This document shows, piece by piece, positions 4,650 to 28,462 of a stretch of DNA of 34,378 nt (positions are counted from its first letter, which is position 1; each line of letters starts with the position of its first letter). Where the stretch lies: positions 1 through 34,378 of the forward strand of contig PWMU01000136.1 of the NCBI GenBank assembly GCA_003558065.1, read 5' to 3'. A model generated the notes under the pieces. That model did no database searches. It was not told the DNA's origin and saw only the letters and a program-made list of their open reading frames with translations. The position numbers and the translations under genes were made by a program. The DNA is from Opitutia bacterium. Lineage in GTDB: Bacteria > Verrucomicrobiota > Verrucomicrobiia > Opitutales > T3Sed10-336.

Positions 4650-6896
4650 TCAATAGAGCAGATACCTCTCGCGAGTTTCCAGAAAAGCGTTTACATCGGC
4701 TTGCCAGCTTTCGATGATTTCGTCCGCGCCGGCACCCTCGAGGAGGGCGTTCCTGACTTCGTCGGTGCCCATGACCCGGTTGAACATGCGTATGCGTCCC
4801 CGGGCGGTCTCGTCTTGCGAATCGCCCAGCGGGTGCTCGTCCTGGTACATTGACTGGAGTGTATCCATGATGTGGATCCCCAGGGAGACCGGCCGCATCC
4901 TGGACGAATCCGTGATGTGGATCTGGACGCCGTGGCAGCTTTCCCCCTCGTAGGTGCCGTAGCGGGGTACTAACACCAGGGGACGGAATTCGACGCCCGG
5001 CAGCTCGCGCGCGCGAAGTTCGCGGGCGAATTCGCCGGAATCGATCCAGGGGGCGCCGACGACTTCGAAAGGCAGGGTGAAGCCGATCCCGACGCTGACT
5101 GTATGGAGTTCGCCGATGGTGCCGGTGGCCGCCATGTGATAAGCGGTTTCGGGGCGGGGGACGTGCTGGGAGGGAAGCACCCACTTGAGTCCGGTTTCCT
5201 CGAAGGTCGCCGAGCGCCTCCACCCTTTCATTTCAATCACTCGCAGATCGCACCCGATTTCGAACTCGGTGTTGAAATACCGGGCGAGTTCCCCCGGAGT
5301 CATGCCGTAAAGATAGGCGATCGGGTAAAGGCCGACAAACGAGGTTCCTTTCTCGGGATCGAGGATGTTCCCGTCAACCAGCGTACCGCCGAAGGGGTCG
5401 GGCCGGTCCAGGACAAAAAACGGGATGCCGGCGTCCCGGGCGGCTTCCATGGCGTAGGCCATGGTGTAAATGTACGTGTAGGACCGGTTGCCGGTGTCCT
5501 GGATGTCGTATACGAGTGCATCGAGCCCTTCGAGCCATTCGGACTCGGGGCGCCGCGTTTCCCCGTAGAGGGAATAGACCGGAAGGCCTGTTGCTTCGTC
5601 CTCGTGGGTTCCCACTCGTTCTCCGGCGTAGTACTGTCCGCGCACCCCGTGTTCCGGAGCGAAGAGTGCCGCGAGTTCGACGTCGGGAGCCGCGCTCAGA
5701 GCATCGATGTTCTGACGTCCGTCACGGGTAATGCCCGTCGGGTTGGTGATGAGGCCCGCCTTTTTCTCTTTGAGTGGCCCCCCGTCCTCAAGGAGGACGT
5801 CCAGTCCGGCAAGGACGGGTTGATAAGGGTCGTCCAGTTTGCTTTCGGCCGGCGGCACGACGCGGGGGGCATCTCTCCCGTCGATCCGGCGGAGGTGGTC
5901 CAAAGCATCCTCGCGCAGGCGCAGGAATTTGAAACCGTGGAAGCGGGCGTTACCTTCGGCGTCCCGCTCCTCGATATCGCGGGAGCGCCGTTCAATGTAC
6001 CGATCAATCGGCTCTTCCCGCGCTTCGGGGCGGGTGGAGTGGATGAACCGGACCTCCCCGTCGTCACCGAGCCCGATCATGCCGACATGACTGACCCAGT
6101 AGCCGCCGTCGCGCCCGGTGACGACGTTGACGAAATCGCCGTCTTTCAAGTGGGGCTTGGCTTGTTCGATCTGTTCGAACGGAAGGAATGTTTCCTCGAT
6201 CTCCTCGACCGGGATGTCCCGCTCGATTTCGTAGCGGTTTTTCAGAAAGCCGGCGCGATCGACCCGCTGGGTGAAGGCAGTGACCTCGTCCCCGCCGATC
6301 CCATCAGTGATATCTTCGACCAGCCAGGCATTGTTCCGGTTCCAGTCGGCTTCGGTGTAATGATTGCGGGTGGCGACGCCGATCCGGCCACCGTCGTAGC
6401 GAAGGCGCTGGAGCAGCGCGAAGAACGTCGGCCAGTCGCGGCCCAGCGCCATGGCGTAAATGTGTTCGATGAAGACGACGCAGTCACCGTGGCTCAGATC
6501 GTAAAGCGGCAGGGGGTCGTGGGTTTCAAAGGGCAGTTCCCCGAGAAGGTGGAGTTGGTAGGGTTGCCCGATGTTCTTGCGGGCCAGGTGAACGACACGG
6601 TCCCGGAGATCCGGCCTCCTTTCCTGAAGGTAACGCAGGTACGCGTCCACCTGTTGCTCGTCGAAGTCGTAAAGAGGCTTGGCCTCCAGGCGGGCGATCT
6701 CCTCGGGATCCAGCCCGAGGTTTTCGCAAATCTCGGTTTCGGCTTCGGAGAGGAAGTACCGGGCCTCCGGTTCCTCCGGTTCGGACAATTCGGTGTCCTC
6801 CGGGTACGGGGCGGCGGTTTCGAAGGTGGCGCACCCGGCGAGAAGGGCGCAGGACAGGATCAGGGGAAATCGCGGCAATTGGGTGCAAGGTTTCAT
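4650..6896 (-). CDS. Lipoprotein: DUF1460 amidase-like domain fused to NamZ-type exo-N-acetylmuramidase (DUF1343/GH171)
   Basis: A 748-residue exported peptidoglycan-processing enzyme by domain content. The ATG at 6896 is chosen over the open frame's earlier ATG because it begins a lipoprotein signal (MKPC...LLAGC, acylated Cys22). Residues about 80-340 match DUF1460, an NlpC/P60-like fold related to N-acetylmuramoyl-L-alanine amidases. The likely nucleophile is Cys139 (HGDCVVF) and the likely histidine is His270 (WVSHVGM). Residues about 360-748 match DUF1343, the exo-beta-N-acetylmuramidase family founded by B. subtilis NamZ: ITNPTG, LFAPEHG (Glu415, the likely catalytic acid), YDIQDTGNRSYTY, DRPDPFGG and YGMTPGELA. 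One polypeptide would therefore remove stem peptide and terminal MurNAc. It is divergent from the carbamoylputrescine amidase gene. Family assignments rest on motifs; the activity is inferred. Confidence 0.9.
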   Translation of the reverse strand: MKPCTQLPRFPLILSCALLAGCATFETAAPYPEDTELSEPEEPEARYFLSEAETEICENLGLDPEEIARLEAKPLYDFDEQQVDAYLRYLQERRPDLRDRVVHLARKNIGQPYQLHLLGELPFETHDPLPLYDLSHGDCVVFIEHIYAMALGRDWPTFFALLQRLRYDGGRIGVATRNHYTEADWNRNNAWLVEDITDGIGGDEVTAFTQRVDRAGFLKNRYEIERDIPVEEIEETFLPFEQIEQAKPHLKDGDFVNVVTGRDGGYWVSHVGMIGLGDDGEVRFIHSTRPEAREEPIDRYIERRSRDIEERDAEGNARFHGFKFLRLREDALDHLRRIDGRDAPRVVPPAESKLDDPYQPVLAGLDVLLEDGGPLKEKKAGLITNPTGITRDGRQNIDALSAAPDVELAALFAPEHGVRGQYYAGERVGTHEDEATGLPVYSLYGETRRPESEWLEGLDALVYDIQDTGNRSYTYIYTMAYAMEAARDAGIPFFVLDRPDPFGGTLVDGNILDPEKGTSFVGLYPIAYLYGMTPGELARYFNTEFEIGCDLRVIEMKGWRRSATFEETGLKWVLPSQHVPRPETAYHMAATGTIGELHTVSVGIGFTLPFEVVGAPWIDSGEFARELRARELPGVEFRPLVLVPRYGTYEGESCHGVQIHITDSSRMRPVSLGIHIMDTLQSMYQDEHPLGDSQDETARGRIRMFNRVMGTDEVRNALLEGAGADEIIESWQADVNAFLETRERYLLY

Positions 6897-12876: not shown

Positions 12877-15831
12877 ATGATGATGATGATCCAACGAGAG
12901 AAAGGCGTGCGGCTTGCTGATTCGCACGGGTTTGTAACGGCGGCTGAAGCACGCGGTTCCGGTTCAACCGCCACGGGTGAAGCCGGGGCCCGGCGTGCTT
13001 TAACCGACGGCGGCGGGGGCGAGGAAAGTGGGCTCCGATCCGGTGCCCGGCCGAGGGGGTTTGCGTTCACCCTGTTCGTGGGCGCACTGCTGGCTTTCAC
13101 GGCAGGCGTTGCTGTCGCACAGACGACCTCCGCTGTCCGGGTCGACGGAATTGAGGAAGGAGGGAAGTACCCGCCCCCCGTAACGCCTGAGGTGGTCGTC
13201 CGGGGGAATTATACCGTGGAGGCGAAGAAGCTCAACGGCGAGCCGTACGAGGGAAGCGGGATCGTCGAGCAGGGACTGCATGAGCTGGAGGTAACGGTGT
13301 CGGACCAGGAGGGTCGCCTGTATTCCTCGACGACCCGTTTCTTCGTTCTCGATCCCGAGGAGCGAGCGCCCACCTACACCGTCGACATGGTAAGCTACCA
13401 CGTGGGACGCCTGGCCGATTATCCTCATGTCATGCCAACGCTCACCGCCAACCGGGAACTCGTCGTGGGAACATCAAGCGGGTGGCCGGAGGATCCGGAA
13501 ATCCCGGAGCACGACCTTTACGGATTCCGTATTACCGATCCGGAAGCCGAGGAACCGAAACTCCGGCTGGTACTGGTCAGCGGCAACCACCCGCGCGAAC
13601 AGACCGGGAGCTGGGCGCTTCAGGGAGCGCTCGACTTCCTGGTGAGCGACGACCCGCGTGCCGAAGACTTGCGCGGTTGGGCGACCTTCTTTGTCTACCC
13701 AATGGTCAACCCGGACGGGCGGTTCCTGGCCTCGGGCCGGTCCAATCCGGAAATGCTGGAGGAGGACGTGAGCGATCACAACCGGGTCTGGAACACGTCC
13801 GGCCGTTTCACGACCACGGATATTTTCGTCGAGGCGATCACGACCGACACCGGCGGCACCGCCGATTACCTGCTCGATTTTCATTCCGCCGGCAGCACCT
13901 TCTTTTATACGGGTGCGGATTTGATGGACAGCGCGTATGCCCGGACCATGACGGCGCGGGAACCGGATGTCCGGCCCCGACTGAGTTCGGGACATCCCGG
14001 GATGACCCGTCTCTGGGCAATGAGCGAGGAAGGGCTCAACGCGCCGTTCGCCTTTACCCCCGAACTTGCGGGAAGCGAGACCGCGAAGCGTTCGATGGAG
14101 ATCGGACGTTCCTATATGCTCGCCTTTCACGACATGATTACGGGGGAATCCGCCCTGGCCGCCCTGGCGGAAGCGTTGACGGCCGAGGGAGGGGAGTTCG
14201 CTTTCGGCCGCTTGTACCGTGAACGATTGCCCGGGAGGAAAGAAGCGATGGAAGCGGTTCTCGAACAGGAGTCCGACCGGGTAGACCGGATCCTGGCCGC
14301 GGTGTACGAGGCCTACGAGGACATGAGCGAGTACCGGGAAGCACTTGGACTGAGCGAATCTGCCGGGGACTCCATCGCGGCGGCACGGGAGCTCCTGGAG
14401 GAATCCCGATTGGTCTTGGCGACCTGGATTGAGGAGGAGCTGACGAGACGGGTGGACCGCCTGGAACAGGCCGTTTTGGATCCGGGGTCGATGATCGACG
14501 AGGTGCGGAAGCTGAACGAGGCGCTCGCCGGCGGATTGGAGGATCTGCGGGACGCGGAGATGGCGGAGACCGCTTTGGCCGTTGCGGACGAAGGGTTTCA
14601 GGGACGGGACGTGGGCTTCGGGGAGGTTTACCGCAAAAGTGTCTTGCAAACCCGAAACAGTCTGGAGGCTTTGCTCAGGGAGTCAGGGATGAGCAGGGAG
14701 GCGATTAGGGGAGAGGCTGAACGCCTCGATGACCGCGTGGCTCGGTATTGGAGGGTTCGGTCCGAAAGTCCGTCGCCGGCCGTGGCCCCGGTGCGGATTA
14801 CGGGCGTTCCGGAGGTGATCGAGGTGAGCGGCGCACGGGGTTGGGAGGACGGGCTTTTGGTGAATGTTGAAGTGGAGGAGGATGGCCTGGTTCCCGGCAA
14901 CGGTGTTGCGATGCATTTCGATGGCGAAGACTCGCACGTGGTGACGGGGTTTCATCCGGGAGAATCCAGCCTGGGGCAAGAGTTTACCTGGGAGTTCTGG
15001 AAACGGTATAGCAGCTTTGAGGACGATACCGGTTCGTCGGGCAGCAGAGACACCGAGCCGAGATTCTACACGCAGTTGACCGGCTCGGACGGGCAGTTCA
15101 GGACGGCGATCGGTGACAGTTACTGGAATTCGGTTACTCTGGACGAGGAGGACCGGTGGTATCATATCGCAGTGGTGTTCGAGAAGGGAGAGGTGCGGAC
15201 GTACGTCGACGGGGAGCTTCGCGACACCCGCTCGGACGTGGAGTTTTCGGGTGACAGTCCCAGTCCGTTCGCGATCGGCAGAGGTTATGACGGAGAACGC
15301 TGGCTCGACGGTTACTCCAGGGAGCATCGGGTTTGGAATACCGCGCGCAGCCAGGGTGAGCTGCGGCGCAATCGATTCCGCGGCCTGGATGGAGATGAGG
15401 ACCATCTTGTCGGTTACTGGAAACTGAGCGAAGGCGAGGGAGATAGGGCTCGGGACTATTCGGGCAACGAGTACCACGGCACGGTGGAAGGCGCCACATG
15501 GAGCGGACGGGCTCTTCCCGGGTATCGGATTTCCCAGCCGGTTTTGTTCACGGAAACCGCAAATGTGAATCAGGTTGTCGTCAGTTGGGAAACCGGAAGC
15601 GGCAATGGTAACGGCAATGGCGATGCCAGCGTCACCGTTCTGGCCGGGTTGAGCGAGAGCGATACGGTGCTTCCCGACCAGTGGCACCCGTCGACCAACG
15701 GAGAGGCTCTGGAAATTTTTGAAGAACGCAACCACCCCGCGGGCACCCATCTGTGGGTGAAACAGAAGCTGTCACCCGGGACTTCCGAGGTGCCAACCAG
15801 ACTTCATCACCTCACTCTTCGTTTCGATTAA
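12877..15831 (+). CDS. Secreted M14 zinc carboxypeptidase with C-terminal LamG/concanavalin-like domain
   Basis: A 984-residue exported metallopeptidase. A hydrophobic signal segment (about residues 62-82, FAFTLFVGALLAFTAGVAVAQ) sits after an unusually long, basic N-terminal stretch. The true start may be later than 12877, but I see no better in-frame codon. An Ig-like strand domain (about 85-160) is followed by the M14 catalytic domain with the complete zinc and catalytic set: His238 and Glu241 (NHPRE), His336 (LDFHSAG) and Glu396 (FTPELAG). Residues about 425-650 are charged and helical, probably a coiled spacer. Residues about 690-835 form a LamG-type lectin fold (FTWEFWKRYSS, WYHIAVVFEKGEVRTYVDG, VGYWKLSEGEG). 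A glycine/asparagine-rich linker precedes the last 65 residues. Substrate unknown. It lies alone between prmC and the ceramidase/sulfatase run. Confidence 0.85.
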   Translation: MMMMIQREKGVRLADSHGFVTAAEARGSGSTATGEAGARRALTDGGGGEESGLRSGARPRGFAFTLFVGALLAFTAGVAVAQTTSAVRVDGIEEGGKYPPPVTPEVVVRGNYTVEAKKLNGEPYEGSGIVEQGLHELEVTVSDQEGRLYSSTTRFFVLDPEERAPTYTVDMVSYHVGRLADYPHVMPTLTANRELVVGTSSGWPEDPEIPEHDLYGFRITDPEAEEPKLRLVLVSGNHPREQTGSWALQGALDFLVSDDPRAEDLRGWATFFVYPMVNPDGRFLASGRSNPEMLEEDVSDHNRVWNTSGRFTTTDIFVEAITTDTGGTADYLLDFHSAGSTFFYTGADLMDSAYARTMTAREPDVRPRLSSGHPGMTRLWAMSEEGLNAPFAFTPELAGSETAKRSMEIGRSYMLAFHDMITGESALAALAEALTAEGGEFAFGRLYRERLPGRKEAMEAVLEQESDRVDRILAAVYEAYEDMSEYREALGLSESAGDSIAAARELLEESRLVLATWIEEELTRRVDRLEQAVLDPGSMIDEVRKLNEALAGGLEDLRDAEMAETALAVADEGFQGRDVGFGEVYRKSVLQTRNSLEALLRESGMSREAIRGEAERLDDRVARYWRVRSESPSPAVAPVRITGVPEVIEVSGARGWEDGLLVNVEVEEDGLVPGNGVAMHFDGEDSHVVTGFHPGESSLGQEFTWEFWKRYSSFEDDTGSSGSRDTEPRFYTQLTGSDGQFRTAIGDSYWNSVTLDEEDRWYHIAVVFEKGEVRTYVDGELRDTRSDVEFSGDSPSPFAIGRGYDGERWLDGYSREHRVWNTARSQGELRRNRFRGLDGDEDHLVGYWKLSEGEGDRARDYSGNEYHGTVEGATWSGRALPGYRISQPVLFTETANVNQVVVSWETGSGNGNGNGDASVTVLAGLSESDTVLPDQWHPSTNGEALEIFEERNHPAGTHLWVKQKLSPGTSEVPTRLHHLTLRFD

Positions 15832-15835
15832 CGAA
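15818..15835 (+). terminator. Stem-loop over the stop codon of the M14 peptidase gene
   Basis: TTCGTT-TCGATT-AACGAA is a perfect 6-bp stem with a 6-base loop that includes the TAA stop. It is followed by CCGGTTCC, not a T-tract. It may stabilise the mRNA end or be chance. Confidence 0.2.
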
Positions 15836-15879
15836 CCGGTTCCATTCCCGGCAGGTTTCCGTTCGAAAATCAGGGACTC

Positions 15880-17205
15880 ATGAGGCTGGAAAACGTAACC
15901 AGAATACCGGTCGGTACCGCGAGGATCGACATTACTCCGGATTACCCGATCCGTCTGAGCGGTTATGCGATGCGTGAAGGTGAGTGTGAAGGGATCGAGC
16001 AACGGCTGTGGGCCCAGGCTATGGCGATCGGAGACGAGGGTGAGGCGGCTTCGTTACTCCTGACCGTCGATAATACGGGAGTGCCGGAGCAGGTGACCGG
16101 CGCGGTCTTTGAACGCGTGGCGGCTCAGGCCGCGGTGGCGCGGGAGAATTTTTCTATCTGCTCAACCCACACGCATCACAGCCCGATGCTCTCCGGGGTG
16201 CTGCCCAACCTCTTCAGCCGGGACCTTTCTTCCAACGAGGAAGCCGCCATTGAACGGTATACAGGGGAACTGATGGTCAGGCTTGAAGAAGTGGCGCTCG
16301 CGGCGCTGTCCGGCCGGAGGCCGGCGTGTCTCTCCTGGGGGCGGGGAACGGTGGATTTTGCAAAGAACCGGCGGACGGAAGGAGGTCCCGTGGATCATTC
16401 TTTGCCGCTTCTCTGTGTGCGATCCCCCGAGGGAAAGCTCCGGGCCGTCTTCACCCGGTACGCCTGTCACTGCACCACGGTGGCCCCGCGCTTCAATAAG
16501 CTTCACGGCGACTGGGCGGGCGAGGCTCGTGCGGCATTCGAGGCGGCTCATCCGGGAGCGATGGCGATGATCGCCATCGGCTGCGCGGGCGACGCGAACC
16601 CGGATCCCCGCCGGGGCCTCGAATTCGCGCGGCGGCACGGGGAGAGCGTCGCCGCGGAGGCGAGTCGGCTGTTGGGAACGGATTTAAAGCCGCTCAACGC
16701 GAAGCCCGGGGGAAGGGTGAGTCGCGTCGACCTTCCCTTTGAAAGGTTGCCGGACCGCCGGGAATGGGAAAACCGGGCGACCCAGCCCGGTATTGTCGGT
16801 TATCACGCCCGGAAGAATCTGGACCGCCTCGACAGGGGAGAAACCCTGCCGGCGACGCTCCCCTGCGGCGCGCAGGCATGGATTTTCGGCGACGAGCTCG
16901 CGATGCTGTTTCTTTCGGGGGAAGTGGTGGTCGATTACACGCGCCGGCTCGAAAACGACTTCGACAGGGATCGGCTGTGGATCAACGCTTATGCCAACGA
17001 CGTCCCGTGCTACATTCCCTCCCGGCGCATCCTGGACGAGGGCGGTTACGAAGCCGAGGAGTCGCAGTGGTTCTACGACCGCCCCGCCCGGTTTGCGCCC
17101 GAAACCGAAGATGTGATCGTCGCCGCCGTTCACGGCCTGATACCCGAGTTCCGCCTCGGCCCCGGGTGTGACAGGGCGGCTGCCTCATCAGCAGGACAAA
17201 CATGA
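15880..17205 (+). CDS. Neutral/alkaline ceramidase-like N-terminal domain hydrolase
   Basis: A 441-residue protein with the catalytic fold of neutral/alkaline non-lysosomal ceramidases (Ceramidase_alk). The signatures are VGTARIDITPDYPIRLSGY at the start, then STHTHHSP (about 95-102, zinc-binding histidines), FTRYACHCTTV (about 193-203) and IGCAGDANPDPR (about 231-242). True ceramidases carry an extra C-terminal domain and a signal peptide. Both are absent here, so the substrate may be another amide or lipid-linked compound, possibly cytoplasmic. Homologues of this short form are common next to sulfatases in Planctomycetes and Verrucomicrobia. The stop overlaps the sulfatase start in ATGA, so the two are translationally coupled. 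An AGGG ribosome site lies four bases before the ATG. Confidence 0.82.
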   Translation: MRLENVTRIPVGTARIDITPDYPIRLSGYAMREGECEGIEQRLWAQAMAIGDEGEAASLLLTVDNTGVPEQVTGAVFERVAAQAAVARENFSICSTHTHHSPMLSGVLPNLFSRDLSSNEEAAIERYTGELMVRLEEVALAALSGRRPACLSWGRGTVDFAKNRRTEGGPVDHSLPLLCVRSPEGKLRAVFTRYACHCTTVAPRFNKLHGDWAGEARAAFEAAHPGAMAMIAIGCAGDANPDPRRGLEFARRHGESVAAEASRLLGTDLKPLNAKPGGRVSRVDLPFERLPDRREWENRATQPGIVGYHARKNLDRLDRGETLPATLPCGAQAWIFGDELAMLFLSGEVVVDYTRRLENDFDRDRLWINAYANDVPCYIPSRRILDEGGYEAEESQWFYDRPARFAPETEDVIVAAVHGLIPEFRLGPGCDRAAASSAGQT

Positions 17206-18677
17206 ACAAATCGGGGAAACGGCGGAATTTTTTGCTGATCATGACCGATCAGCAGCGCGGGGATTGCCTGGGAATCGACGGGCACCCGGCGCTGTTGACG
17301 CCCAATATGGACAGCATTGCCGGGGCGGGCGCGCGGTTCCGGCGCGCCTACAGCACCTGCCCGGTTTGCATTCCGGCGCGCCGGTCCTTCCTTACCGGCC
17401 AGTTTCCGGCCACCCACGGGTTGACCGGTTACGAGGACGGACACGAGTGGGATCCGGCTCATTCGCTTCCCAATGTTCTCCGGAATGCCGGGTATCATAC
17501 CTACCTCGCCGGCCGGGACATGCACCAGTACCCCGTGCGCAAGCGTTATGGGTACGATCATATGGTCGGCATGAACGATTACCGGCGCTGGCTGGACCGG
17601 CGGATGCCGGTGGACACCCATCAGCCGGAAGGGGGATTTCTGGGAGATTATTATTCGAGCGGCGTCATGTCGTCGGACTGGACCGCGCGTTCCTGGCACC
17701 TGGACGAGTGCCTGCACCAGACGAACTGGACGGTCAACGAGGCTATGAAGTTTCTGCAGAACCGCGATCCATCCGCGCCGTTTTTCCTGACCGTGTCCTT
17801 CCTTGCTCCCCACCCGCCCCTGGTTCCCCCGGCGTTTTACATGAAGCGCTACTTGCGGACGGAGCTGCCCGGTCCGTGGATCGGTGACTGGGCGGCGCCT
17901 CCGGATCACAACGGACTGGGGTACGGGCCGGAGCATTACCGGGTGAATCTGAAGGGCGAGGCGCTGCGATCGACACGGGCGGCCTATTACGGCTTGATCA
18001 ACCATATAGACGATCAAATCGGACGCCTGCTGAGTCCGTTCACGGGCGTCGATCCTTCCGATACGGTCGTTATCTTTTCGAGCGATCACGGGGAGATGCT
18101 TGGCGACCATTACATGTGGCGGAAGAACGTGCCTTACGAAGGGTCGGCGCGTATTCCCCTGTTGATACGGGCTCCGGATGGATACGGCTTGAAACCGCGC
18201 GAGGTCATCGATCTTCCCGTTTGCCTGGAAGATATCATGCCCACGATCCTCGATCTGGCCGATGTCGAATGCCCGGAGGGAGTGGACGGACGGAGCCTGG
18301 CGCCGTTGATGCGCGGGAAGGAAACGGACTGGCGCGACTGCCTGCACATCGAACATACGGCCGGCCGCCGGGAGGGAGGCGATCTCGCGCATCTCGCCCA
18401 TCATACGTTGACCGACGGGAAGGAGAAGTACATCTGGTTTGCCGGGGACGGAACCGAGCAGCTCTTCGATCTGGAGAGCGATCCCCGCGAATTGAAGGAT
18501 CTGGCGGTAGACGCTTCGTCCGGGGAAAGGCTCCGCTCCTGGCGGAATCGGTTGATCGAGGAACTGGATGGGCGTGCGGAGGGTTTTACGGACGGCTCCC
18601 GCCTGATAGCGGGCCGGGACTACCCGGTTTTTATGAAGGAACGCGTCTCAATGACTGAAAGACGCAAAAGGCGATGA
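17202..18677 (+). CDS. Type I sulfatase (arylsulfatase family)
   Basis: A 491-residue sulfate ester hydrolase of the alkaline-phosphatase superfamily. The formylglycine-precursor core CxPxR is intact: Cys56-Ile-Pro58-Ala-Arg60, with RSFLTG following. Metal and substrate residues are recognisable: Asp16 (MTDQQRGD), Lys104-region AGRDMH, His204 (LAPHPP), Asp295-His296 (SSDHGEMLGDH) and Lys308. There is no signal peptide: the chain begins MNKSGKRRNFLLIMTDQQ, which is the start of the catalytic domain. The enzyme is therefore probably cytoplasmic, unusual for polysaccharide-degrading sulfatases. An activating formylglycine-generating or anaerobic maturase gene is not in the window. An AGGA ribosome site lies six bases upstream. 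Both ends overlap neighbours in ATGA, so it is the middle gene of a coupled trio. Confidence 0.93.
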   Translation: MNKSGKRRNFLLIMTDQQRGDCLGIDGHPALLTPNMDSIAGAGARFRRAYSTCPVCIPARRSFLTGQFPATHGLTGYEDGHEWDPAHSLPNVLRNAGYHTYLAGRDMHQYPVRKRYGYDHMVGMNDYRRWLDRRMPVDTHQPEGGFLGDYYSSGVMSSDWTARSWHLDECLHQTNWTVNEAMKFLQNRDPSAPFFLTVSFLAPHPPLVPPAFYMKRYLRTELPGPWIGDWAAPPDHNGLGYGPEHYRVNLKGEALRSTRAAYYGLINHIDDQIGRLLSPFTGVDPSDTVVIFSSDHGEMLGDHYMWRKNVPYEGSARIPLLIRAPDGYGLKPREVIDLPVCLEDIMPTILDLADVECPEGVDGRSLAPLMRGKETDWRDCLHIEHTAGRREGGDLAHLAHHTLTDGKEKYIWFAGDGTEQLFDLESDPRELKDLAVDASSGERLRSWRNRLIEELDGRAEGFTDGSRLIAGRDYPVFMKERVSMTERRKRR

Positions 18678-20668
18678 GCCGGCGGGCGCGACGTTGCTTC
18701 ACCCGCGTGACGGGCGCGGTTCTTCTGGGGCTTGCCTGGGCCGGCGGGAGTCTCGCGGCCGAGCTTCTCGTGTACGAAGCCTTTGAATACGAACGGCGCC
18801 AGGGACATGTGAACGCTGAGATTCCGGGCGAGGGGATCGACGGGTTGGACGGGGGATACGGGTGGGACGGCGGATGGTCAATGACCGCGCCGGACAATCT
18901 GAACTCGGGAATACCGGAAGGACACGGCGATTTCGGCGAAGGGGAAACGTGGGGCACGAATCTCGGCGCGCGTACCGGGCCGCTTTCGTATTCGGATGTG
19001 TTTGGGAACTCGCTCACGGTTTCCGGAAATCAAGTGCGTACGTCTTTCGGGAACAGTTCGTGGGAACGGCGTTCCCTCGCGCAACCGGTCGGGGAACCGG
19101 GCAGCACCGTGTGGATGAGCTTTCTTGCCCAGGCGCACGCGGACTCCACGGCCAGTCGCCGGTGGGCTTTTGTAGAACTGTCGAAGAACGGAACGAACCG
19201 GGCCTGGTTCGGGAACGTGACACCGGTTGTATCCGGCAATTGGGCGATGCAGCTTCCGGACCATCCGGAGGGAAGCCTGTACGCGGACGCAGGGGAGGAC
19301 TACAAAATGTCCGAGCCGACCCTGTATCTCGTAAAGCTTGCTTTTCCCGAAGATTCCGCCGGACGGACCCGCATTTCCGTGTGGTTGAATCCGGCGAACC
19401 TGGTTCACGAGAAAGCGCTGCGGACTCCGGTTTTCGAATTCGAAACCGCTTACACGGAATACGATCAAGTCGGCGTGGCGGGACGGTTTTCGACGGATTT
19501 CGACGAGATCCGGATCGGGACGAGCTTCGAGGCGGTGACGCCGACGGGGGTGACGCCTCCCTCGGCTCGGGGATTGGCCATTCAGCGCGACCGAGAGGAG
19601 ATGGTGCTTTCCTGGCCGGCCGAGGGTGCGGAACATCTTGCGCTCTATTCGTCGAATGATCTCGGAACGTGGACCGAGAGTCCCCATCTTCCGGTGACCG
19701 GGGACGAGAGGAGACGCGTGACCGTGCCGGCGTCTGCCGGGCGGCAATTTTTCCGCCTTCAGGAAATACCCTCGACGCTTTCACCGCCCCGTCTGGCAAA
19801 CCTGGAACGCTCGGGATGGGAGCCGCGGCCTGTTGCCGCCGGTCTTGTTTATTACGAGCGTCACTTTGAGAATCTGTTTGGCGATCCACAGGTGGTGAAC
19901 GTTTTGGCGATCGACCTGGATCATCCGGACGTGCGGATCGAACTGACCGCGACCGACGTCTGGGAACAAACCCGAATGCCGATTCAGGATTTCGCGCAAC
20001 ATGCCGGAGCGATCGCGGCGATCAACGGCGGCTTCGCACCGGCCCGGGTCCATGAGGAAGTCGGGTACGGGATCATGAAGTTCCGTGGCGAGGTATGGCC
20101 GTTTGTCAACGATCCCTCGTTCCACGAGGCTTATGAGGCTCTTGGGAGGAATGCAGTGGGTATTGACAGTGACGGGAAGTGGCATTTCGCCTCGCGCGGC
20201 GAGGAGGGGTGGGAACTCGGCGCCACGTGGGATTCGGACTGGCCAGGTATGGTCGATGCAATGGCCGGCGGAAGCCAGCTGGTGCGTAACGGGCGGGTTT
20301 ATCCCCTCGTGGTTCCGGAGGAAACGCGTGGAGCCTATCTGGAAGATGACAGGCTGCACCAGTTGACGTTCAACCGGCACCCCCGCACGGCGATCGGCAT
20401 TACAGAGGAGCGGGTTGCGGTCCTGGTGACGCTCGCCGGACGCTTCCCGGGAACAGCCGCGGGCATGACCCTGCAGGAGCTTGCCGAGCTGATGCTGTTC
20501 ATTGGGTGCCGCGACGCGCTGGAGCTGGATGGAGGAGGTTCGACCACGATGTGGATTGGGCGGGAACCGTTCGGGGGCGTCGTTAATTATCCGACCGACA
20601 ACGGTCAGTTCGACCACGAAGGCGCCCGCTCGCTGCGGCTTGCGGTGCTCGTCATGGAGAGGGATTGA
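18674..20668 (+). CDS. Exported three-module protein: lectin-like module, FFRLQ module and phosphodiester glycosidase (NAGPA family)
   Basis: A 664-residue secreted protein. It has a signal peptide at 1-29 (cut after SLAA). A lectin-like beta-rich module (about 30-290) starts YEAFEYERRQGH and ends GRFSTDFDEIRIGTSF. A small module at about 300-363 (LSWPAEG ... FFRLQ) is common at the ends of Verrucomicrobia secreted proteins. A C-terminal NAGPA/DUF2233 domain (about 380-664) carries the INGGFAPAR, RHPRTAIG and LDGGGSTTMW motifs. That family hydrolyses sugar-1-phosphodiester bonds; the human member uncovers mannose-6-phosphate. The glycosidase domain aligns without gaps, at high identity, to the lipoprotein encoded at 26142. 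The N-terminal part aligns with the 28584 and 29612 products. The start overlaps the sulfatase stop (ATGA). The reaction is inferred from family. Confidence 0.88.
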   Translation: MSRRARRCFTRVTGAVLLGLAWAGGSLAAELLVYEAFEYERRQGHVNAEIPGEGIDGLDGGYGWDGGWSMTAPDNLNSGIPEGHGDFGEGETWGTNLGARTGPLSYSDVFGNSLTVSGNQVRTSFGNSSWERRSLAQPVGEPGSTVWMSFLAQAHADSTASRRWAFVELSKNGTNRAWFGNVTPVVSGNWAMQLPDHPEGSLYADAGEDYKMSEPTLYLVKLAFPEDSAGRTRISVWLNPANLVHEKALRTPVFEFETAYTEYDQVGVAGRFSTDFDEIRIGTSFEAVTPTGVTPPSARGLAIQRDREEMVLSWPAEGAEHLALYSSNDLGTWTESPHLPVTGDERRRVTVPASAGRQFFRLQEIPSTLSPPRLANLERSGWEPRPVAAGLVYYERHFENLFGDPQVVNVLAIDLDHPDVRIELTATDVWEQTRMPIQDFAQHAGAIAAINGGFAPARVHEEVGYGIMKFRGEVWPFVNDPSFHEAYEALGRNAVGIDSDGKWHFASRGEEGWELGATWDSDWPGMVDAMAGGSQLVRNGRVYPLVVPEETRGAYLEDDRLHQLTFNRHPRTAIGITEERVAVLVTLAGRFPGTAAGMTLQELAELMLFIGCRDALELDGGGSTTMWIGREPFGGVVNYPTDNGQFDHEGARSLRLAVLVMERD

Positions 20669-20886
20669 GCGGGCGGATGAGGCTGTTCTTCCGCGAAGCG
20701 CCTGCAAAACCTGCCGGTCGTCGCGGTATGGAACAAACATTGTCGGTGCATTCGCGGTGATGGGATTGTCCCTGCATGTAAGCGACATGGTTTCATTCCC
20801 TGTCCTACGCCCGAGTCAATCGAATGAACGTTGCGTAAGATTTGGATTGTTTCGAACGGCGTGCATGGCAACCATTCAATGAATTA

Positions 20887-22071
20887 ATGAAGGGGTTTTG
20901 TAAGTATGTGCTGTTTCCTGTGAGCGGAGCCGTCTGGCTCTGGGCGGCGGTTGTCGTCGCTGCGATCGAGTTGCCGGAGGGCGCCGAGCGCGAGGCGATC
21001 CATCCGGGGGCCTGGGCATTTTCATGGACAGGGGAAACGGCCGAAGGGCCGGTGGCAATACACGGGTTTTACTGGGTGCGTGGGAACGAGGAATTGTCAA
21101 TGGTCGCCACCGCAGGAAGGGACCAGGTTCGGGGCACCGAGGAGACGAGCCGGCAGGCGGAGCGTCATGCCGGCGCATCGGTCCGGCCGCTCGCGGCGGT
21201 AAACGCGGATTTCTTTGTGGTGAGGGGGCCGGGGTACGGATCCGTTCACGGACCGTTTATTCGCGACGGTGAACTGCTCTCACTCGGCGATTCGCCGGCG
21301 GCGGCGATACTGGAGGATGGTTCGCTCGCGATTGCGGAGCTTGAGATCAGCGTCTGGCTGGAGACGCATGACGGCGCGCGGATCCGGATCGACCGGGTGA
21401 ACCATGAACGAGGGGAGAACCAACGGGTATTGTACACGCCTTCCTGGAATGGCAGTACCGCAACCGGGGAGGAGGGCGTGGAGGTCCGGCTGAAGGGACC
21501 CGGTCACCTGAAGCCGGACGGCGAAATCAGGGTCGAGGTGGCGGAGGAGCCGCGGGCGGAAACAGGCGACATGGCGTACGGTGCGGGCGAGTTTGTGCTT
21601 TCCGCCGAAGGTGAAGGACTCGCCCAGATTATCGATTTGCGTCCGGGGGACCGGTTCAAGCTGCATTCGCGGATGGATTCCGCGTTGCCGATCGTCCACG
21701 CGGTCGGGGGACTCCCGGTGATGATTCGCGACGGGGAGGTTTTGGATTTCGAAGGGGCGGATCCGGATGATTACATTCCCGGGCCCGGCGATCCGAATGC
21801 GCGGCATCCCCGCACCGCCATAGGAACCGACGGCCGGCATATTGTGGCCCTGGCGGTGGACGGTCGGGCGCCCGGGCACAGCGATGGAATGACCGTTCCC
21901 GAACTGGGCCGGTTCATGCGGCAGCTCGGTTGCACCGACGCGATCAACCTGGACGGCGGCGGTTCGACCACGGCATGGGCGGCCGGCCGGGCTTTGAATC
22001 GTCCCAGTGACGGATCCGAGCGTCCGGTGGGCAACGCGTTGGTTTTGGTTGTGACCCAGCGGGAACAATAA
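20887..22071 (+). CDS. Phosphodiester glycosidase family protein (NAGPA domain)
   Basis: A 394-residue exported protein with a hydrophobic N-terminus (KYVLFPVSGAVWLWAAVVVAAIE, signal or anchor). The NAGPA domain spans about residues 60-394, with AVNADFFVV (first strand and metal-site region), AVGGLPVMIRDG, RHPRTAIGTDGRHIVALAVDGR, HSDGMTVPELGRFMRQLGC and NLDGGGSTTAW. It has an insertion in the middle and is clearly more distant from the 18674 and 26142 enzymes than they are from each other. This suggests a different sugar or leaving group. The ATG at 20887 gives a good signal; a TTG upstream at 20842 is possible. No ribosome site is visible. The 218-base gap before it holds only a short hairpin (CATGT-AAGCG-ACATG at 20775-20789). 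Confidence 0.85.
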   Translation: MKGFCKYVLFPVSGAVWLWAAVVVAAIELPEGAEREAIHPGAWAFSWTGETAEGPVAIHGFYWVRGNEELSMVATAGRDQVRGTEETSRQAERHAGASVRPLAAVNADFFVVRGPGYGSVHGPFIRDGELLSLGDSPAAAILEDGSLAIAELEISVWLETHDGARIRIDRVNHERGENQRVLYTPSWNGSTATGEEGVEVRLKGPGHLKPDGEIRVEVAEEPRAETGDMAYGAGEFVLSAEGEGLAQIIDLRPGDRFKLHSRMDSALPIVHAVGGLPVMIRDGEVLDFEGADPDDYIPGPGDPNARHPRTAIGTDGRHIVALAVDGRAPGHSDGMTVPELGRFMRQLGCTDAINLDGGGSTTAWAAGRALNRPSDGSERPVGNALVLVVTQREQ

Positions 22072-22083
22072 GGACGCTCCTTA
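22069..22083. terminator. Stem-loop between convergent genes
   Basis: TAAGGA-CGC-TCCTTA is a perfect 6-bp stem that includes the stop codon of the 20887 gene. Read on the minus strand it is followed by TTGTTCC, a weak T-rich tail, so it may end the minus-strand transcript as well. Support is moderate to low. Confidence 0.33.
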
Positions 22084-22102
22084 AACAACGTTCGTCGATT
22101 TC

Positions 22103-23452
22103 CTACTGTCCACGCAGCTTCGGTACCAGACTCCTTCCGTCCCGTTCACCGAGATCGACGCTGAGGAATTCAGCGGCTGTGGGCGCCACATCTTCTAATC
22201 CGATCTCGTCGAGGACGGTCCCCGGTTCGATCCCCGGTCCCCACGCGACAAAGCCGGTGTAATTGTTCGGGGATGCGGGCGTCGGCCGGCTGCCGTGTTG
22301 GCCTCGATTGACGGACAGCCGGGCGGGTTTTTTCCAACTCGCGTGAAACGCGTGTCCCTCCGTCGCGTTGAGGGCGAAAACAGCGCGCGGATCGGCGCCG
22401 ATCTCATCCAGTTTGTCGCGGGAAAGGATCGTGAATCCCCGCCGGTCCTCCTCTGGCAACGCGTCCAGCATCGCGAGGATCTCCTCCTTTTCGTCCCCGT
22501 CGGAATCGTGGAGAAAGGCGGAGCCGCCGTAGGCCTCGAATCGCGGCCCCTCCGGATCGCCGAGGCCGGCTTCGTCCAGCCAGACATTGGGCCGCAGATG
22601 AGTCCGGATATCGTCCATTCCGTGGTCGCCGGTAACGATAAACACGGTTTTGTCGGCGATCCCGGCCCGTTCGACTGCCGCGACGATTTCCGCTAGTCCC
22701 ATGTCGGTCGACGCGACAATACCTCTCACCGCGGCTCCATCGCGCCCGAATCGGTGCTGCGTGGTGTCGGTGTCGTTGAATCGCAAAGCGAGGAAATTCG
22801 GGCGGTGTTTTTCAATGAACGTAACGCCTATTGCCATCATCCGTGCATCGCGGACGGTCCCGGTGATGTACCGTTCGTAGTTCCGCGAGTGGCCGGGACG
22901 GTCCGCGCCGTCGCCGGCGGAAATGAGGCCTTCCGTCGGGGGGACGGTTTCCGCGTCGGAAAAGTCGATGAAGCGGAGGTTGTGGATAGTGTGATCGGGC
23001 GGCCCGTGGCCCGAGCCGGGCCACACCACGGCGGCCGTCACGCCTCCCGCGGCATGGACGGCGTGAAGGATCGATGAATCCTCCTCCAGGCGGTAGGGCA
23101 TGCTGTTGTTAAAAACGCCGTGCCGCGCGGGAAGCCAGCCGGTGAGCAGCGTAACGTGGCCGGGCCTCGTCGTCGAGGGAAACGGGGGCAGCGCCCGGCG
23201 CGCGTACGCCCCTTCGCGTGCCTTTTCCTGGAGCAAAGGCGCCGGCCATCCCTCGTCCTGGTACCATTGTGGGTTGAATCCGTCGATGGATATGAGGATC
23301 AGGTGTTCGGCGATCGGCGTGTCATCGGCGGGCAGGGGAGCGGCGAGGCCGCCGAGAAGAAGGATTGTGGCGAGCGCCGGCGCAAGTGTCATTCCCGGCA
23401 ACCGAATAATGTTGAGCAAGCGTTGGCTGATCTGCTGTATCATGAAATTCAT
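22103..23452 (-). CDS. NPP-type phosphodiesterase/nucleotide pyrophosphatase (alkaline phosphatase superfamily)
   Basis: A 449-residue exported enzyme of the ectonucleotide pyrophosphatase/phosphodiesterase group, which cleaves phosphodiester or phosphoester bonds with two zinc ions. A signal peptide is visible (APALATILLLGGLAAPLPAD). Metal and nucleophile residues include Asp57 (ISIDGFNPQWY), the probable nucleophile Thr95 in PSTTRPGH (equivalent to the PTKTFPNH motif), TGDHGMDD and HAFHAS. It lacks the nuclease-like and somatomedin domains of animal members. Two in-frame ATGs, at 23452 and 23443, are possible; I chose 23452. It starts 17 bases after the stop of the amidotransferase-like gene and is the last gene of the four-gene minus-strand set controlled by the divergent LacI-family gene. 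Substrate is not determinable, but sugar phosphodiesters fit its neighbours. Confidence 0.88.
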   Translation of the reverse strand: MNFMIQQISQRLLNIIRLPGMTLAPALATILLLGGLAAPLPADDTPIAEHLILISIDGFNPQWYQDEGWPAPLLQEKAREGAYARRALPPFPSTTRPGHVTLLTGWLPARHGVFNNSMPYRLEEDSSILHAVHAAGGVTAAVVWPGSGHGPPDHTIHNLRFIDFSDAETVPPTEGLISAGDGADRPGHSRNYERYITGTVRDARMMAIGVTFIEKHRPNFLALRFNDTDTTQHRFGRDGAAVRGIVASTDMGLAEIVAAVERAGIADKTVFIVTGDHGMDDIRTHLRPNVWLDEAGLGDPEGPRFEAYGGSAFLHDSDGDEKEEILAMLDALPEEDRRGFTILSRDKLDEIGADPRAVFALNATEGHAFHASWKKPARLSVNRGQHGSRPTPASPNNYTGFVAWGPGIEPGTVLDEIGLEDVAPTAAEFLSVDLGERDGRSLVPKLRGQ

Positions 23453-23469
23453 TACCTTGAAACCTGCGA

Positions 23470-24273
23470 TTACTTCGCGCTCTGGCCGTTTTTCCCGGAA
23501 ACCAGGTCCAGGCATTTCAGCCAGAAGTTCCGGTACTCGTCCCAGAATACGAAATTGCACCCCCAGTGCGGGGCGGGGTCCGACGTGAAAGCGAGAACCT
23601 TTCCATCACCGGTACGCCGTGTGGCCAAAAGCGGGTGTCCGGTCTCGGCGAACTCCATCAGCACCTCCCCTTCGGCGGACGGACGGGTTTCGTTGTAGCC
23701 GAGTATCGGCGGACAGGAACTGAAATCGATACCGTCGAGAGGTTTTCGTCCCGCGTCGGTGACGACGGGCTGGAAACCCTCGGTGGATTCGGTGAGGTCT
23801 TCATGCTCGAGACACCGGACCGGCAGGATATCGGCCAGGCGTGTTCGCCCCCAGCCTCCCTTGCCGATTTCCCCGGTGAATGAATACCATCCGCCAAGAA
23901 ACATCATTCCTTTCCCCGCCTCGACGGCTTCGACCGTCAGCCGGATGCGGTCCGGGAAGGTCAGAATATTTTTCCCGAACTGCTCCCGGTCGAAAAAGCC
24001 CGGCGCCAATTGAAAAAGTTTCGCTTCCACATCGCTGAAAATGATCACGTCGTACTCTTCCAACACCTTCTCGTACCCGCCTGGACCGAGCTTGTAGAAA
24101 TCCCAGGAAGGCACGGAGTTCACCTGGTGCTTCCCGGTGGATTCCAGGGCGTTCTTCAACCATTTTCCGTAATTGAAAATCTCGAGCCCCTTGGGCCCGG
24201 CGTGGAAGGGAGTTTCGTAGAAATACGGGCCACTCAGAATCGCCCAGTCGCCAACATAGTATACTTGTGCCAT
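23470..24273 (-). CDS. Glutamine amidotransferase-like protein (GATase1_like/DUF1355)
   Basis: A 267-residue cytoplasmic protein of the DUF1355 group, which has a class I glutamine-amidotransferase fold but an unknown function. The start QVYYVGDWAILSGPYFYETPF is typical, with YDVIIFSDVEAKLFQLAP, GMMFLGGWYSFTGEIGKGGW and the late LAFTSDPAPHWGCNFVFWDEY block. No obvious GCxG nucleophile elbow is present, so it is probably not a working amidotransferase. Homologues often sit beside carbohydrate transport or degradation genes. A GAGGAAA ribosome site precedes the ATG. It lies 45 bases downstream of the symporter gene and 17 upstream of the phosphodiesterase gene, in one probable operon. Confidence 0.85.
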   Translation of the reverse strand: MAQVYYVGDWAILSGPYFYETPFHAGPKGLEIFNYGKWLKNALESTGKHQVNSVPSWDFYKLGPGGYEKVLEEYDVIIFSDVEAKLFQLAPGFFDREQFGKNILTFPDRIRLTVEAVEAGKGMMFLGGWYSFTGEIGKGGWGRTRLADILPVRCLEHEDLTESTEGFQPVVTDAGRKPLDGIDFSSCPPILGYNETRPSAEGEVLMEFAETGHPLLATRRTGDGKVLAFTSDPAPHWGCNFVFWDEYRNFWLKCLDLVSGKNGQSAK

Positions 24274-24318
24274 AAATTTCCTCGTTTTGATGATCGCAGA
24301 GCCTGTCGATGCCGGGAT

Positions 24319-26145
24319 TCATGCGGCCGGTTTGCCGGAGTTTTCTTCAGTCCCGAATTCCCTTTCGCCGCCTTCGGGTTCAAAAGCGGGCTGCCTCCAG
24401 ATCCGGAACAACAACCACGTGGTCGCGAGCGCGCAAACTACCGCCGATGTCGTGAAAACTCCCCACGCCCCGACGAAGAGCGAGTTGGTCGCAAGGACCA
24501 GTCCCAGGCACGCGGCAATCCCCAGAACACAGTCGAACACGAGGTGCCCGGTCGCAGGGCCGGAGGGCCGGTTCCCGGACAGTTCGCGGATGGGCTTCCA
24601 GAGACCGGGCGGGCGGCAGCGTTCATAAAAACGCAGCAGCGTTTCTTTCGATTCCGGCGGCGTGAGAAGAGTGACCCCGATCAGCACAACAAAGCTCAGA
24701 ACAAAAAGGATGCCCAGTCCCTGCCAGATCGGCTGACTCTGGAAGTCCAGGACGAACCAGATCAGGATCGCCAGCGGCAGTCCGAGCGCAACGGCGGAAA
24801 ACTCGCCCCACACGTTGAATCGCCACCAGAAGAACCGAAGCCAGGAGAGGGGCAGCAGAAACATCACCATCGCTGAATTGATGAACAGGAACCACCCTAT
24901 CATTCCTTCCACAAAAAGAATCGCGACAAACGCCGCCAGGACGAACAGGCACAGCGTCACCAGGCGGCTGATCCAGATCTCCTGTGTCCGGCTCAGCTTG
25001 TTCCCGTTTTTCGTGCGACCGTTTTTCAATACGAAGTCATTGACGATGAAACTGCTGCCCCAGTTGATCAGGGAGCTCTGCGTGGACATATACGCGGCGG
25101 CTTCCACTGCGAGCAACAGGCCCACGAAGCCGAGAGGAACCGCGGTCATGGCGGCCAGGGTGCCCCACGCGTGGACCGGGTCTTCGAGCATGACGGCGTT
25201 TTCGGGCGTGTGCCCGTAGTGTTCGGCGAGGTCGGGGGTCCAGAAAAGCGACATGGCCACAATCCCCAGTCCGATGATGGGAAGCGTGCGAAAGGTCAGG
25301 GCGAGAAACGCATTGAACAACTGACCTCCGACCGCGTGCCGCTCGTTCCGGGCGGCCATAAAGCGCTGGGCGGTCATTCCTTCCCCGGCGGTGGGCGATC
25401 CCGCAAAGAAAAGCCCCTGAAGCAGTAGCATCATCAACGTCACCACTTCGATATTCGGGGCGGGCGGGGCGATCTTCAGTCCCTCGGGCCGTATTTCCCG
25501 TACGCGCTCCGTAATCTCCAGCCATCCCCCGTGCTGGTCGACGGCGAACCAGAGGAAAATGCCGCCCCCGATCATCAGGATCGCAAACTGGACCGCGTCG
25601 GTGTACACGACGCCGACCAGCCCGCCCATCATCGTATACACGACGGCGATCCCTCCGAAGATCAACAGGATCTGCACTTCGGTCAGCGGAACTAACGGCG
25701 AAATCACCTGGGCAAAGAATCCCGTGCTGTAGCCGATGAGAAGGACGGCGAATCCGAAGCAGCACAGCAGAGCGTAGAGCTTGCGCACGAACTGAGCGGG
25801 AGCGCCTCCGTAACGCAGCGTGATCAACTCCGCTGTCGTGACGATCCGCATACGCCGCCAGAGACGCGACCAAATAATGGCCACCAGCGGCATCCACACG
25901 ATCCAGCTCGCCCACCAGAGCCAGTTTCCCGCGATGCCGAACGCGAGAATCAGCATCACGAAAGCGCCCGATCCCGATTGGTAGGTCGCGGTATTGGAAA
26001 GGCCGATCGACCACCAGGGGAGATTGCGGTTGCCGGTGAAGAAGCCGCGGGCTCCGTGCCTGGACGCACGGCGGGCGAAAAAGAGTCCGACGCCCAGTGA
26101 GAGGGCACACAGAACGGTCAATACGGCGTAGTCGGCAAAAGTCAT
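24319..26145 (-). CDS. Sodium:solute symporter family transporter
   Basis: A 608-residue inner-membrane protein with about 13-14 hydrophobic segments, matching the SSS (solute:sodium symporter) family. The GFFTGNRNLPWWSIGLSNTATYQSGSGAF stretch (helix 1b-2), VVYTMMGGLVGVVYTDAVQF (helix 5-6) and a long cytoplasmic loop before the last helices are characteristic. Substrates of this group include sugars, sugar acids, nucleosides and small organic acids. The specificity cannot be read, but the surroundings favour a sugar or glycerol-like product of the phosphodiester glycosidases. The ATG overlaps the stop of the preceding lipoprotein gene (ATGA at 26142-26145), so translation is probably coupled. 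The C-terminal tail is acidic. Confidence 0.92.
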   Translation of the reverse strand: MTFADYAVLTVLCALSLGVGLFFARRASRHGARGFFTGNRNLPWWSIGLSNTATYQSGSGAFVMLILAFGIAGNWLWWASWIVWMPLVAIIWSRLWRRMRIVTTAELITLRYGGAPAQFVRKLYALLCCFGFAVLLIGYSTGFFAQVISPLVPLTEVQILLIFGGIAVVYTMMGGLVGVVYTDAVQFAILMIGGGIFLWFAVDQHGGWLEITERVREIRPEGLKIAPPAPNIEVVTLMMLLLQGLFFAGSPTAGEGMTAQRFMAARNERHAVGGQLFNAFLALTFRTLPIIGLGIVAMSLFWTPDLAEHYGHTPENAVMLEDPVHAWGTLAAMTAVPLGFVGLLLAVEAAAYMSTQSSLINWGSSFIVNDFVLKNGRTKNGNKLSRTQEIWISRLVTLCLFVLAAFVAILFVEGMIGWFLFINSAMVMFLLPLSWLRFFWWRFNVWGEFSAVALGLPLAILIWFVLDFQSQPIWQGLGILFVLSFVVLIGVTLLTPPESKETLLRFYERCRPPGLWKPIRELSGNRPSGPATGHLVFDCVLGIAACLGLVLATNSLFVGAWGVFTTSAVVCALATTWLLFRIWRQPAFEPEGGEREFGTEENSGKPAA

Positions 26146-27149
26146 TCCGGTACCGCGTTGTCGTTTTCCTGGAGTACGAGAACGGCAAGCCTCAGGCTGC
26201 GCTCGCCTTCGTGGTCGAACCGGCCGTTGTCGGTCGGGTAATTAACGACACCTGAAAACGGTTCGTCCCCGATCCACATGGTGGTCGAACCTCCGCCGTC
26301 GAGCTCCAGGGCGTCGCGGCAGCCGATGCGCACCAATAGTTGCGCGAGTTCATGAAGGGTCATCCCGGCGGCTTTTTCCTCGAAACGTCCCGCCACGGTA
26401 GCCAGGACCGCGATTCGATCGGCGGTGATGCCGACCGCTGTACGGGGATGGCGCCGGAAGGTCAACCGCGAAAGAACGGGGTCTTCGAGGTAGGCGCCTT
26501 TCGTCGTTTCCCGCACGACGAGAGGATGAACCTCGCCGTCTTGCACGAGACGACTGCCTCCCGCCATGACCTGTTCCATTTCCGGCCAATCGTTATCCCA
26601 GCTGGATTCCAGTTCCCAGCTCTCTTCGCCGCGCGAGGCAAAATGCCAATTCCCGTTTCTGTCGATCCCCAGGGCGTTTCGCCCGTGGGCCTCCCAGGTG
26701 TGGTGGAATGCGGGGTCGTTGACAAACGGCCAGACCTCTCCCCGGAATTTCATCATCCCGTAGCCGACCTCTTCGTGACGACGGGCGGGGGCGAAACCTC
26801 CGTTGACGGCGGCAACGGCATCGGCCCGCGCCGCCAGCCATGACGTCGGCATCCGCGTCACCCCCCAGACATCGGTTGCGGTGAGTTCGATCCGGATATC
26901 CGGATGATCCAGGTCGACCGCGAGGAGGTTCACGACCTGGGGCGCTCCGAACAGCTCCTCGAAATGGCGCTCGTAGTAAGTGACCCCGGGGCGCACCGGC
27001 TGAGGCGTCCATCCTTGCTCCTCCATTCCCGGAAGCCCCGCCTCCGAAGGAAGGCATCCGCTGAGCACAAAACAGCCTGCGATGCAAAGGAGAAATCCGC
27101 TGCCGAGGGCGAGTCGAGGCCCTGGGGAGTTGTCAATGACTTCTTTCAT
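26142..27149 (-). CDS. Lipoprotein phosphodiester glycosidase (NAGPA family)
   Basis: A 335-residue enzyme anchored to the membrane by a lipoprotein signal (FLLCIAGCFVLSGC, acylated Cys32). After it comes a complete NAGPA/DUF2233 domain: VNGGFAPAR, RHPRTAVGITADRIAVL, RIGCRDALELDGGGSTTMW and VVNYPTDNG. By eye it matches the C-terminal part of the 18674 protein at roughly two thirds or more identity over about 285 residues with no gap. The two are therefore recent paralogues sharing a probable substrate. Here the enzyme is membrane-bound and lacks the lectin-like module. It is first in the LacI-flanked operon and overlaps the symporter gene. Confidence 0.9.
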   Translation of the reverse strand: MKEVIDNSPGPRLALGSGFLLCIAGCFVLSGCLPSEAGLPGMEEQGWTPQPVRPGVTYYERHFEELFGAPQVVNLLAVDLDHPDIRIELTATDVWGVTRMPTSWLAARADAVAAVNGGFAPARRHEEVGYGMMKFRGEVWPFVNDPAFHHTWEAHGRNALGIDRNGNWHFASRGEESWELESSWDNDWPEMEQVMAGGSRLVQDGEVHPLVVRETTKGAYLEDPVLSRLTFRRHPRTAVGITADRIAVLATVAGRFEEKAAGMTLHELAQLLVRIGCRDALELDGGGSTTMWIGDEPFSGVVNYPTDNGRFDHEGERSLRLAVLVLQENDNAVPE

Positions 27150-27180
27150 ACTCGACGGGATCGTTCAGGGAGACTCAACC

Positions 27181-27260
27181 GAAACCTTCAGATTGGAAAC
27201 CAGAGGCGAATCCGCAAGAGTAAATATTATAAAATATTATAATATAAGCTTGCTGGTTTC
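27181..27260. promoter_or_regulatory. Divergent control region with AT-rich tandem repeat and inverted half-sites
   Basis: The 140-base gap between the lipoprotein glycosidase and the lacI-type gene is the only strongly AT-rich stretch nearby. It holds a perfect tandem 10-bp repeat AAATATTATA (27222-27231 and 27232-27241) that runs into the 12-bp palindrome ATATTATAATAT (27234-27245). The tract is flanked by an 8-bp inverted repeat, GAAACCAG (27196-27203) and CTGGTTTC (27253-27260). A further GAAACC lies at 27181-27186. GAAAC/GTTTC half-sites resemble those bound by many LacI-family proteins. TATAAT hexamers exist on both strands. Likely promoters and operators for both genes; exact sites are not proven. 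Confidence 0.45.
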
Positions 27261-27289
27261 GGCCCGGCATCTTACCTTCCGGAGGTAAA

Positions 27290-28336: not shown

Positions 28337-28373
28337 AAGGGCGGCCGTGCCTTGGTTTCGAGATTGTAACCGC

Positions 28374-28397
28374 GGCGGCATACGGCTGCCACGGTTT
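28374..28397 (+). terminator. Possible terminator of the lacI-type gene
   Basis: GGCGGC-ATACG-GCTGCC (6-bp stem with one G-T pair) at 28374-28390 is followed by ACGGTTTTG, 37 bases after the stop codon. The T-tract is short and not adjacent to the stem. Confidence 0.32.
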
Positions 28398-28462
28398 TGA
28401 GGCAGGGTGGTGTCACGGAAGCGGGGGTCGGAAGGCCGCCAACTGCAAAAGGGTCGCGATTG

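Follow-up and report, generated by a model that had tools for sequence, protein, structure and literature searches.

The analysis of the window, by which we mean the whole stretch of 34,378 nucleotides, reveals an AmiA-like (DUF1460) amidase and a NamZ exo-N-acetylmuramidase, both complete, within one chain. We propose that this protein is probably a bifunctional lipoprotein that digests peptidoglycan fragments in the cell envelope, with the amidase acting first and NamZ second. The DUF1460 domain, presumably an NlpC/P60-type cysteine amidase, would cut the bond between MurNAc and the stem peptide, and the GH171 NamZ domain would then take the bared MurNAc off the non-reducing glycan end, so that peptide and MurNAc (or anhydroMurNAc) are set free and a shortened glycan with a GlcNAc end is passed on to other enzymes. 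We infer that both activities are present, that the steps follow this order, and that proximity speeds the pathway. The enzymatic nature of NamZ was recognized only in recent years, and the fusion provides a single protein in which the idea of peptide removal before NamZ action is testable, a modest advance and not a new kind of system.

Architecture and conservation of the fused protein

The open frame 4650-6896 (minus strand) encodes a single protein of 748 residues whose translation begins MKPCTQLPRFPLILSCALLAGC (Table 1). As the earlier note had claimed, it joins the DUF1460 amidase to NamZ, with three Pfam matches above cut-off: PF07313 (E 6.3e-27, 94.8 bits against a cut-off of 27), NamZ_N (E 1.3e-78, 263.5 bits), and NamZ_C (E 9.3e-44, 150.3 bits), the cut-offs being the curated ones in all three cases. 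No NCBIfam model matched the fused protein at E 1e-5, and the beta-lactamase-type PF00144 was absent from its Pfam matches even at a limit of E 1. A longer start is possible by rule (TTG at 7022); the ATG at 6896 agrees with the signal peptide and with the homolog L040. The lipobox described earlier is borne out by the motif LLAGC at residues 18-22, with Cys22 shared by the other fused protein and a separate Sumerlaeota amidase (3/3), and would anchor the fused protein in the membrane. The NamZ half, read from its sequence, lacks a separate signal peptide, and the junction is without an ATG.

Table 1. Coordinates of the fused gene and its parts in the window
Feature	Position	Strand	Remark
Fused AmiA-like (DUF1460) amidase and NamZ exo-N-acetylmuramidase gene	4650..6896	-	748 aa, stop codon included
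Signal peptide, residues 1-21, lipobox LLAG/C at its end	6834..6896	-	read from sequence
Cys22, presumed lipidated	6831..6833	-	invariant 3/3 (fused pair and separate Sumerlaeota amidase L067)
Tether, acidic/proline-rich, residues 23-60, fast-evolving	6717..6830	-	sequence and dN/dS
Whole amidase unit, residues 61-352, with C-terminal extension GFKFLRL...APRV	5841..6716	-	extension common to standalone relatives
AmiA-like (PF07313) core, residues 106-291	6024..6581	-	Pfam
Cys139, predicted nucleophile	6480..6482	-	invariant 27/27
His270, predicted catalytic histidine	6087..6089	-	invariant 27/27
His286, predicted third member of Cys-His-His triad	6039..6041	-	invariant 27/27
Junction, residues 331-360	5817..5906	-	start-like codons: only TTG (332) and GTG (347); no ATG
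NamZ_N (PF07075), residues 381-582	5151..5756	-	Pfam
Glu415, PEHG motif, predicted catalytic	5652..5654	-	invariant 82/82; equals Glu92 of Bacillus mojavensis NamZ
NamZ_C (PF20732), residues 591-748	4653..5126	-	Pfam

The active sites were examined by aligning each half with its relatives. C139, H270, and H286 are without variation in all 27 aligned amidases, as are E415, H416, and D467 in all 82 aligned NamZ sequences; C139, H270, and E415 thus stand where the earlier note placed them, and the third histidine, H286, had been overlooked. E415 aligns with residue 92 of Bacillus mojavensis NamZ (numbered from the first Met), which we take to be the position of the proposed catalytic glutamate in Bacillus subtilis NamZ, the glutamate of the PEHG motif being presumably catalytic in this family. 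A Cys-His-His triad has been ascribed to DUF1460 (PMC10318531), with which H286 as the third member is consistent. The window amidase resembles the DUF1460/AmiA-like family (PF07313) in its profile match and in these residues but represents a diverged subfamily, marked by a GQPYxLxLLGE motif, the C-terminal extension, and the NamZ fusion; it is distant from the characterized DUF1460 amidase (24.7 bits in a single-sequence search). Solved relatives of the amidase half are 2im9, 2p1g, and 4h4j/4q5k/4q68, the last three presumably being Bacteroides uniformis AmiA, and an 18-sequence amidase profile recovered 2im9, 2p1g, and 4h4j, each at E 7.7e-21 or better. The NamZ half (residues 360-748) has 4k05 as its closest solved relative (E 3.7e-98) and shares the whole of NamZ_N and NamZ_C with GH171 NamZ (B. 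subtilis YbbC/NamZ; PDB 4k05, 4jja), from which it differs in sitting behind an amidase and in having no signal peptide. AlphaFold models of the whole protein (7 sequences; mean pLDDT 60.0) and of the amidase part (3 sequences; mean pLDDT 56.8) are of low confidence and give no indication of the mutual orientation of the sites; an alignment in which the separate Sumerlaeota amidase was paired with NamZ (20% identity) was left out of the modeling.

A congeneric genome, that of Verrucomicrobia bacterium isolate T3Sed10_319, carries a second fused copy (G368 = L036 = L040). This copy has the same three Pfam domains, shares 79% identity across residues 22-748, and aligns without gaps at the junction. 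Between the two genes, dN/dS was 0.087 over NamZ_N and 0.089 over the amidase, and reached 0.148 over NamZ_C, 0.18 over the junction, and 0.44 over the signal and spacer (residues 1-60), ratios that are rough because synonymous sites are near saturation. These values point to purifying selection on both halves.

Rarity of the fusion and a parallel with AmiE-like domains

The DUF1460-NamZ fusion was found in 2 of 372 order-sample genomes, the window's genome and its congener only; AmiA-like proteins as such occurred in 11 of these 372 and in 30 of the 288 genomes of the phylum sample. Within the family (8 genomes), two fusions were accompanied by standalone NamZ or none in the rest, and in the congener G305 neither half was matched. 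Sumerlaeota-group genomes carried AmiA-like proteins in 23 of 40 cases, none fused to NamZ as judged by frame length, and by these counts the architecture is rare. The two longest AmiA-like frames of that group each contained two AmiA-like matches, and one frame with two AmiA-like domains was seen in a Sumerlaeota-group genome at L168:1312-3420 (minus strand). An AmiA-like protein was also present in 11 of the 12 genomes with a close NamZ, in frames too short to include NamZ. Distant fusions could be missed, because the named-genome scan used short query peptides and covered the best 80 of 299 matches. No description of a DUF1460-NamZ fusion was found in the literature searched, which says little about print overall. 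Elsewhere in the window's genome, L006 (G000:C188:898-1143) is a brief AmiA-like match that scores under the cut-off and carries an in-frame stop.

Several phylum-sample NamZ frames exceeded 740 residues. Fifteen of these were taken and ten were Pfam-scanned (L175, L177, L181, L182, and L183 were left out); all ten, from Verrucomicrobiota, combined PF00144 with NamZ (L169, L170, L171, L172, L173, L174, L176, L178, L179, and L180), and these ten were accordingly rejected as further DUF1460 fusions. NamZ is likewise the C-terminal half behind a presumed amidase in these proteins, but that amidase is a serine enzyme whose fold is unrelated to that of the DUF1460 amidase. The joining of NamZ to a presumed amidase in a single chain is therefore not peculiar to this protein; only the DUF1460 version is rare. 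One DDPept-DUF1343 protein is already tabulated in a 2008 survey (PMC2605481).

The PF00144 domains of the fusions match NamZ-neighbor proteins at 27.8-42.7% identity; such matches occur in 42 of 78 loci, most of them Bacillaceae by record title, and the neighbor match at L068 is itself PF00144 by Pfam. The matching gene in B. subtilis is amiE, which encodes a MurNAc-L-alanine amidase and shares a single cluster with nagZ and ybbC (PMC5061867). That cluster, murQRP-amiE-nagZ-ybbC(namZ), likewise brings an amidase together with NamZ in one muropeptide pathway; it differs from the fusion in its separate proteins, its other amidase family, and its MurQ route. A MurQ route was considered and rejected, the MurQ model giving no match above cut-off in seven family genomes, the window's included, where its best match was a GKRP-like SIS protein. 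NamZ is thus joined to two unrelated presumed amidases, which suggests that peptide removal prepares the NamZ substrate. A further reading, put forward only tentatively, is that at least two evolutionary joinings of NamZ to a MurNAc-L-alanine amidase (cysteine DUF1460 and serine AmiE-like) mark a tightly coupled hand-off; the fused protein would then be a single-chain unit that accepts a peptide-bearing MurNAc end and releases the peptide and then the sugar, possibly with a novel DUF1460 specificity for ordinary MurNAc.

Kinship and gene neighborhoods of the two halves

In the NamZ tree, the half from the fusion clusters with Sumerlaeota, KSB1, and Calditrichota sequences in a 15-member group (support 95/88), outside of which lie the three other NamZ proteins of the window's genome. 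The amidase half clusters among enzymes from the same order and from Sumerlaeota (21 rows, support 89/92), and Sumerlaeota thus include kin of both halves; deeper branches are only moderately supported in both trees. NamZ was located within 1.5 kb of the amidase and on the same strand in 3 of 20 Sumerlaeota-group loci (L067, L159, and L160, from three genomes). These side-by-side pairs differ from the fusion in being two genes and in their order, NamZ and then amidase, and the fusion therefore did not arise by loss of one stop codon. At L067, lipobox-like signals stand at the start of both proteins.

The direct neighbors of the fused gene within the window include no peptidoglycan families. 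An operon reading was rejected on this ground, and the suggestion of the earlier note that the protein serves feeding on other cells' peptidoglycan finds no direct support there. Standalone relatives of the amidase, examined in nine 16-kb loci (46-54% identity in the matched stretch), are surrounded by an M20 peptidase (8/9), a TonB receptor (7/9), the anhydroMurNAc kinase AnmK (7/9), and GHL10 (4/9), in counts whose family seeds were drawn from those same loci; a GH3 enzyme, a NagK-like kinase, and an alanine racemase occurred as single cases. This is a muropeptide-use neighborhood, and it ties the amidase subfamily of Verrucomicrobiota and Sumerlaeota to muropeptide genes and their use. AnmK lies beside two GHL10 genes in both fusion genomes, distant from the fused gene, and was present in one of five tested family members without the amidase, numbers that are small and come from related genomes. 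At one muropeptide locus, a 999-residue protein (L121:12719-15718, minus strand) combines Amidohydro_3 with a Peptidase_S13 D-Ala-D-Ala carboxypeptidase.

A mobile-element origin was also considered and rejected: viral contigs yielded no amidase relative, and among 72,556 plasmid records no match covered 80% of the fused protein. Amidase-only plasmid matches stayed below 30% identity among the 20 of 596 matches listed. DUF1460-type matches were seen in 558 Klebsiella plasmid records, at about 26-28% identity among the matches listed, and NamZ relatives of about 41-42% identity on plasmids of Haladaptatus, Halorussus, and Natrononativus (H22, H23, H24, and H26), which we take to be haloarchaea. 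Murein is absent from archaea, and these plasmid relatives are a possible sign of bacterial wall sugar scavenging.

Substrates of the two halves and rival readings

The succession of amidase and NamZ is supported by the neighboring Sumerlaeota pairs, the PF00144-NamZ fusions, and the B. subtilis cluster. Counting against coupling are the weak co-occurrence in the phylum sample (NamZ in 22 of 30 amidase-bearing genomes versus 148 of 258 others), the lone position of the fused gene, and the reversed gene order in Sumerlaeota. The characterized DUF1460 amidase cleaves MurNAc-L-Ala, and Xu et al. reportedly found in 2014 that it is specific for GlcNAc-1,6-anhydroMurNAc-peptide; NamZ requires an ordinary non-reducing MurNAc, that is, the other end from anhydroMurNAc. 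The two halves may consequently not share one substrate. The coupled step proposed in the earlier note is upheld in its complete domains, conserved residues, and comparative support, and is weakened by substrates that may differ between an anhydro end and a non-reducing end.

This difference underlies the alternative that both domains are active on different fragments, the amidase on GlcNAc-anhydroMurNAc products of lytic transglycosylases and NamZ on MurNAc-GlcNAc ends left by other enzymes, with the fusion securing only a common place and dose. We take it seriously while considering it rather unlikely: the reported anhydro-end specificity, AnmK near standalone amidase relatives in seven of nine loci, and its presence in both fusion genomes speak in its favor, whereas the independent fusion of NamZ to an AmiE-like domain, the Bacillus relative of which is a MurNAc-L-alanine amidase in a NamZ cluster, speaks against it, and the specificity of the window amidase may differ at 24.7 bits from the characterized enzyme. 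A version in which one half has lost catalysis and binds or positions fragments for the other is improbable, given that every predicted catalytic residue is present and invariant and that dN/dS is low in both halves; it draws what credit it has from catalysis being predicted for either half and from models too weak for site geometry.

In a draft assembly of 197 contigs, two neighboring genes might be merged by an assembly error or a misreading of the frame, but this is hardly credible here and is in effect refuted by the same full-length fusion, with its gap-free junction, in the second genome; the stretch ahead of NamZ, moreover, offers neither an ATG nor a signal peptide. It is also very unlikely that the protein serves in cell separation or wall remodeling, hydrolyzing the intact wall of its own cell and not fragments. 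Exo-acting enzymes open few bonds in the sacculus, which tells against this role; GHL10 genes adjoining AnmK in both fusion genomes favor it, DigH being a member of GHL10. Glycans free of peptide are degraded by DigH, and the protein gathers at the septum (PMC12288456). The comparable enzymes AmiE and NagZ were found to be inactive on intact peptidoglycan (PMC10653849), a finding that favors fragments as the substrate in the preferred reading of amidase followed by NamZ.

Elsewhere in the window, a large cluster extends across 12877-31551, with NAGPA phosphodiester glycosidase genes at 18674-20668, 20842-22071, and 26142-27149 alongside sulfatase, phosphodiesterase, ceramidase-like, sodium:solute symporter, and LacI-type regulator genes. 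Its gene content resembles that of a locus dedicated to a substrate that is sulfated or phosphodiester-linked.
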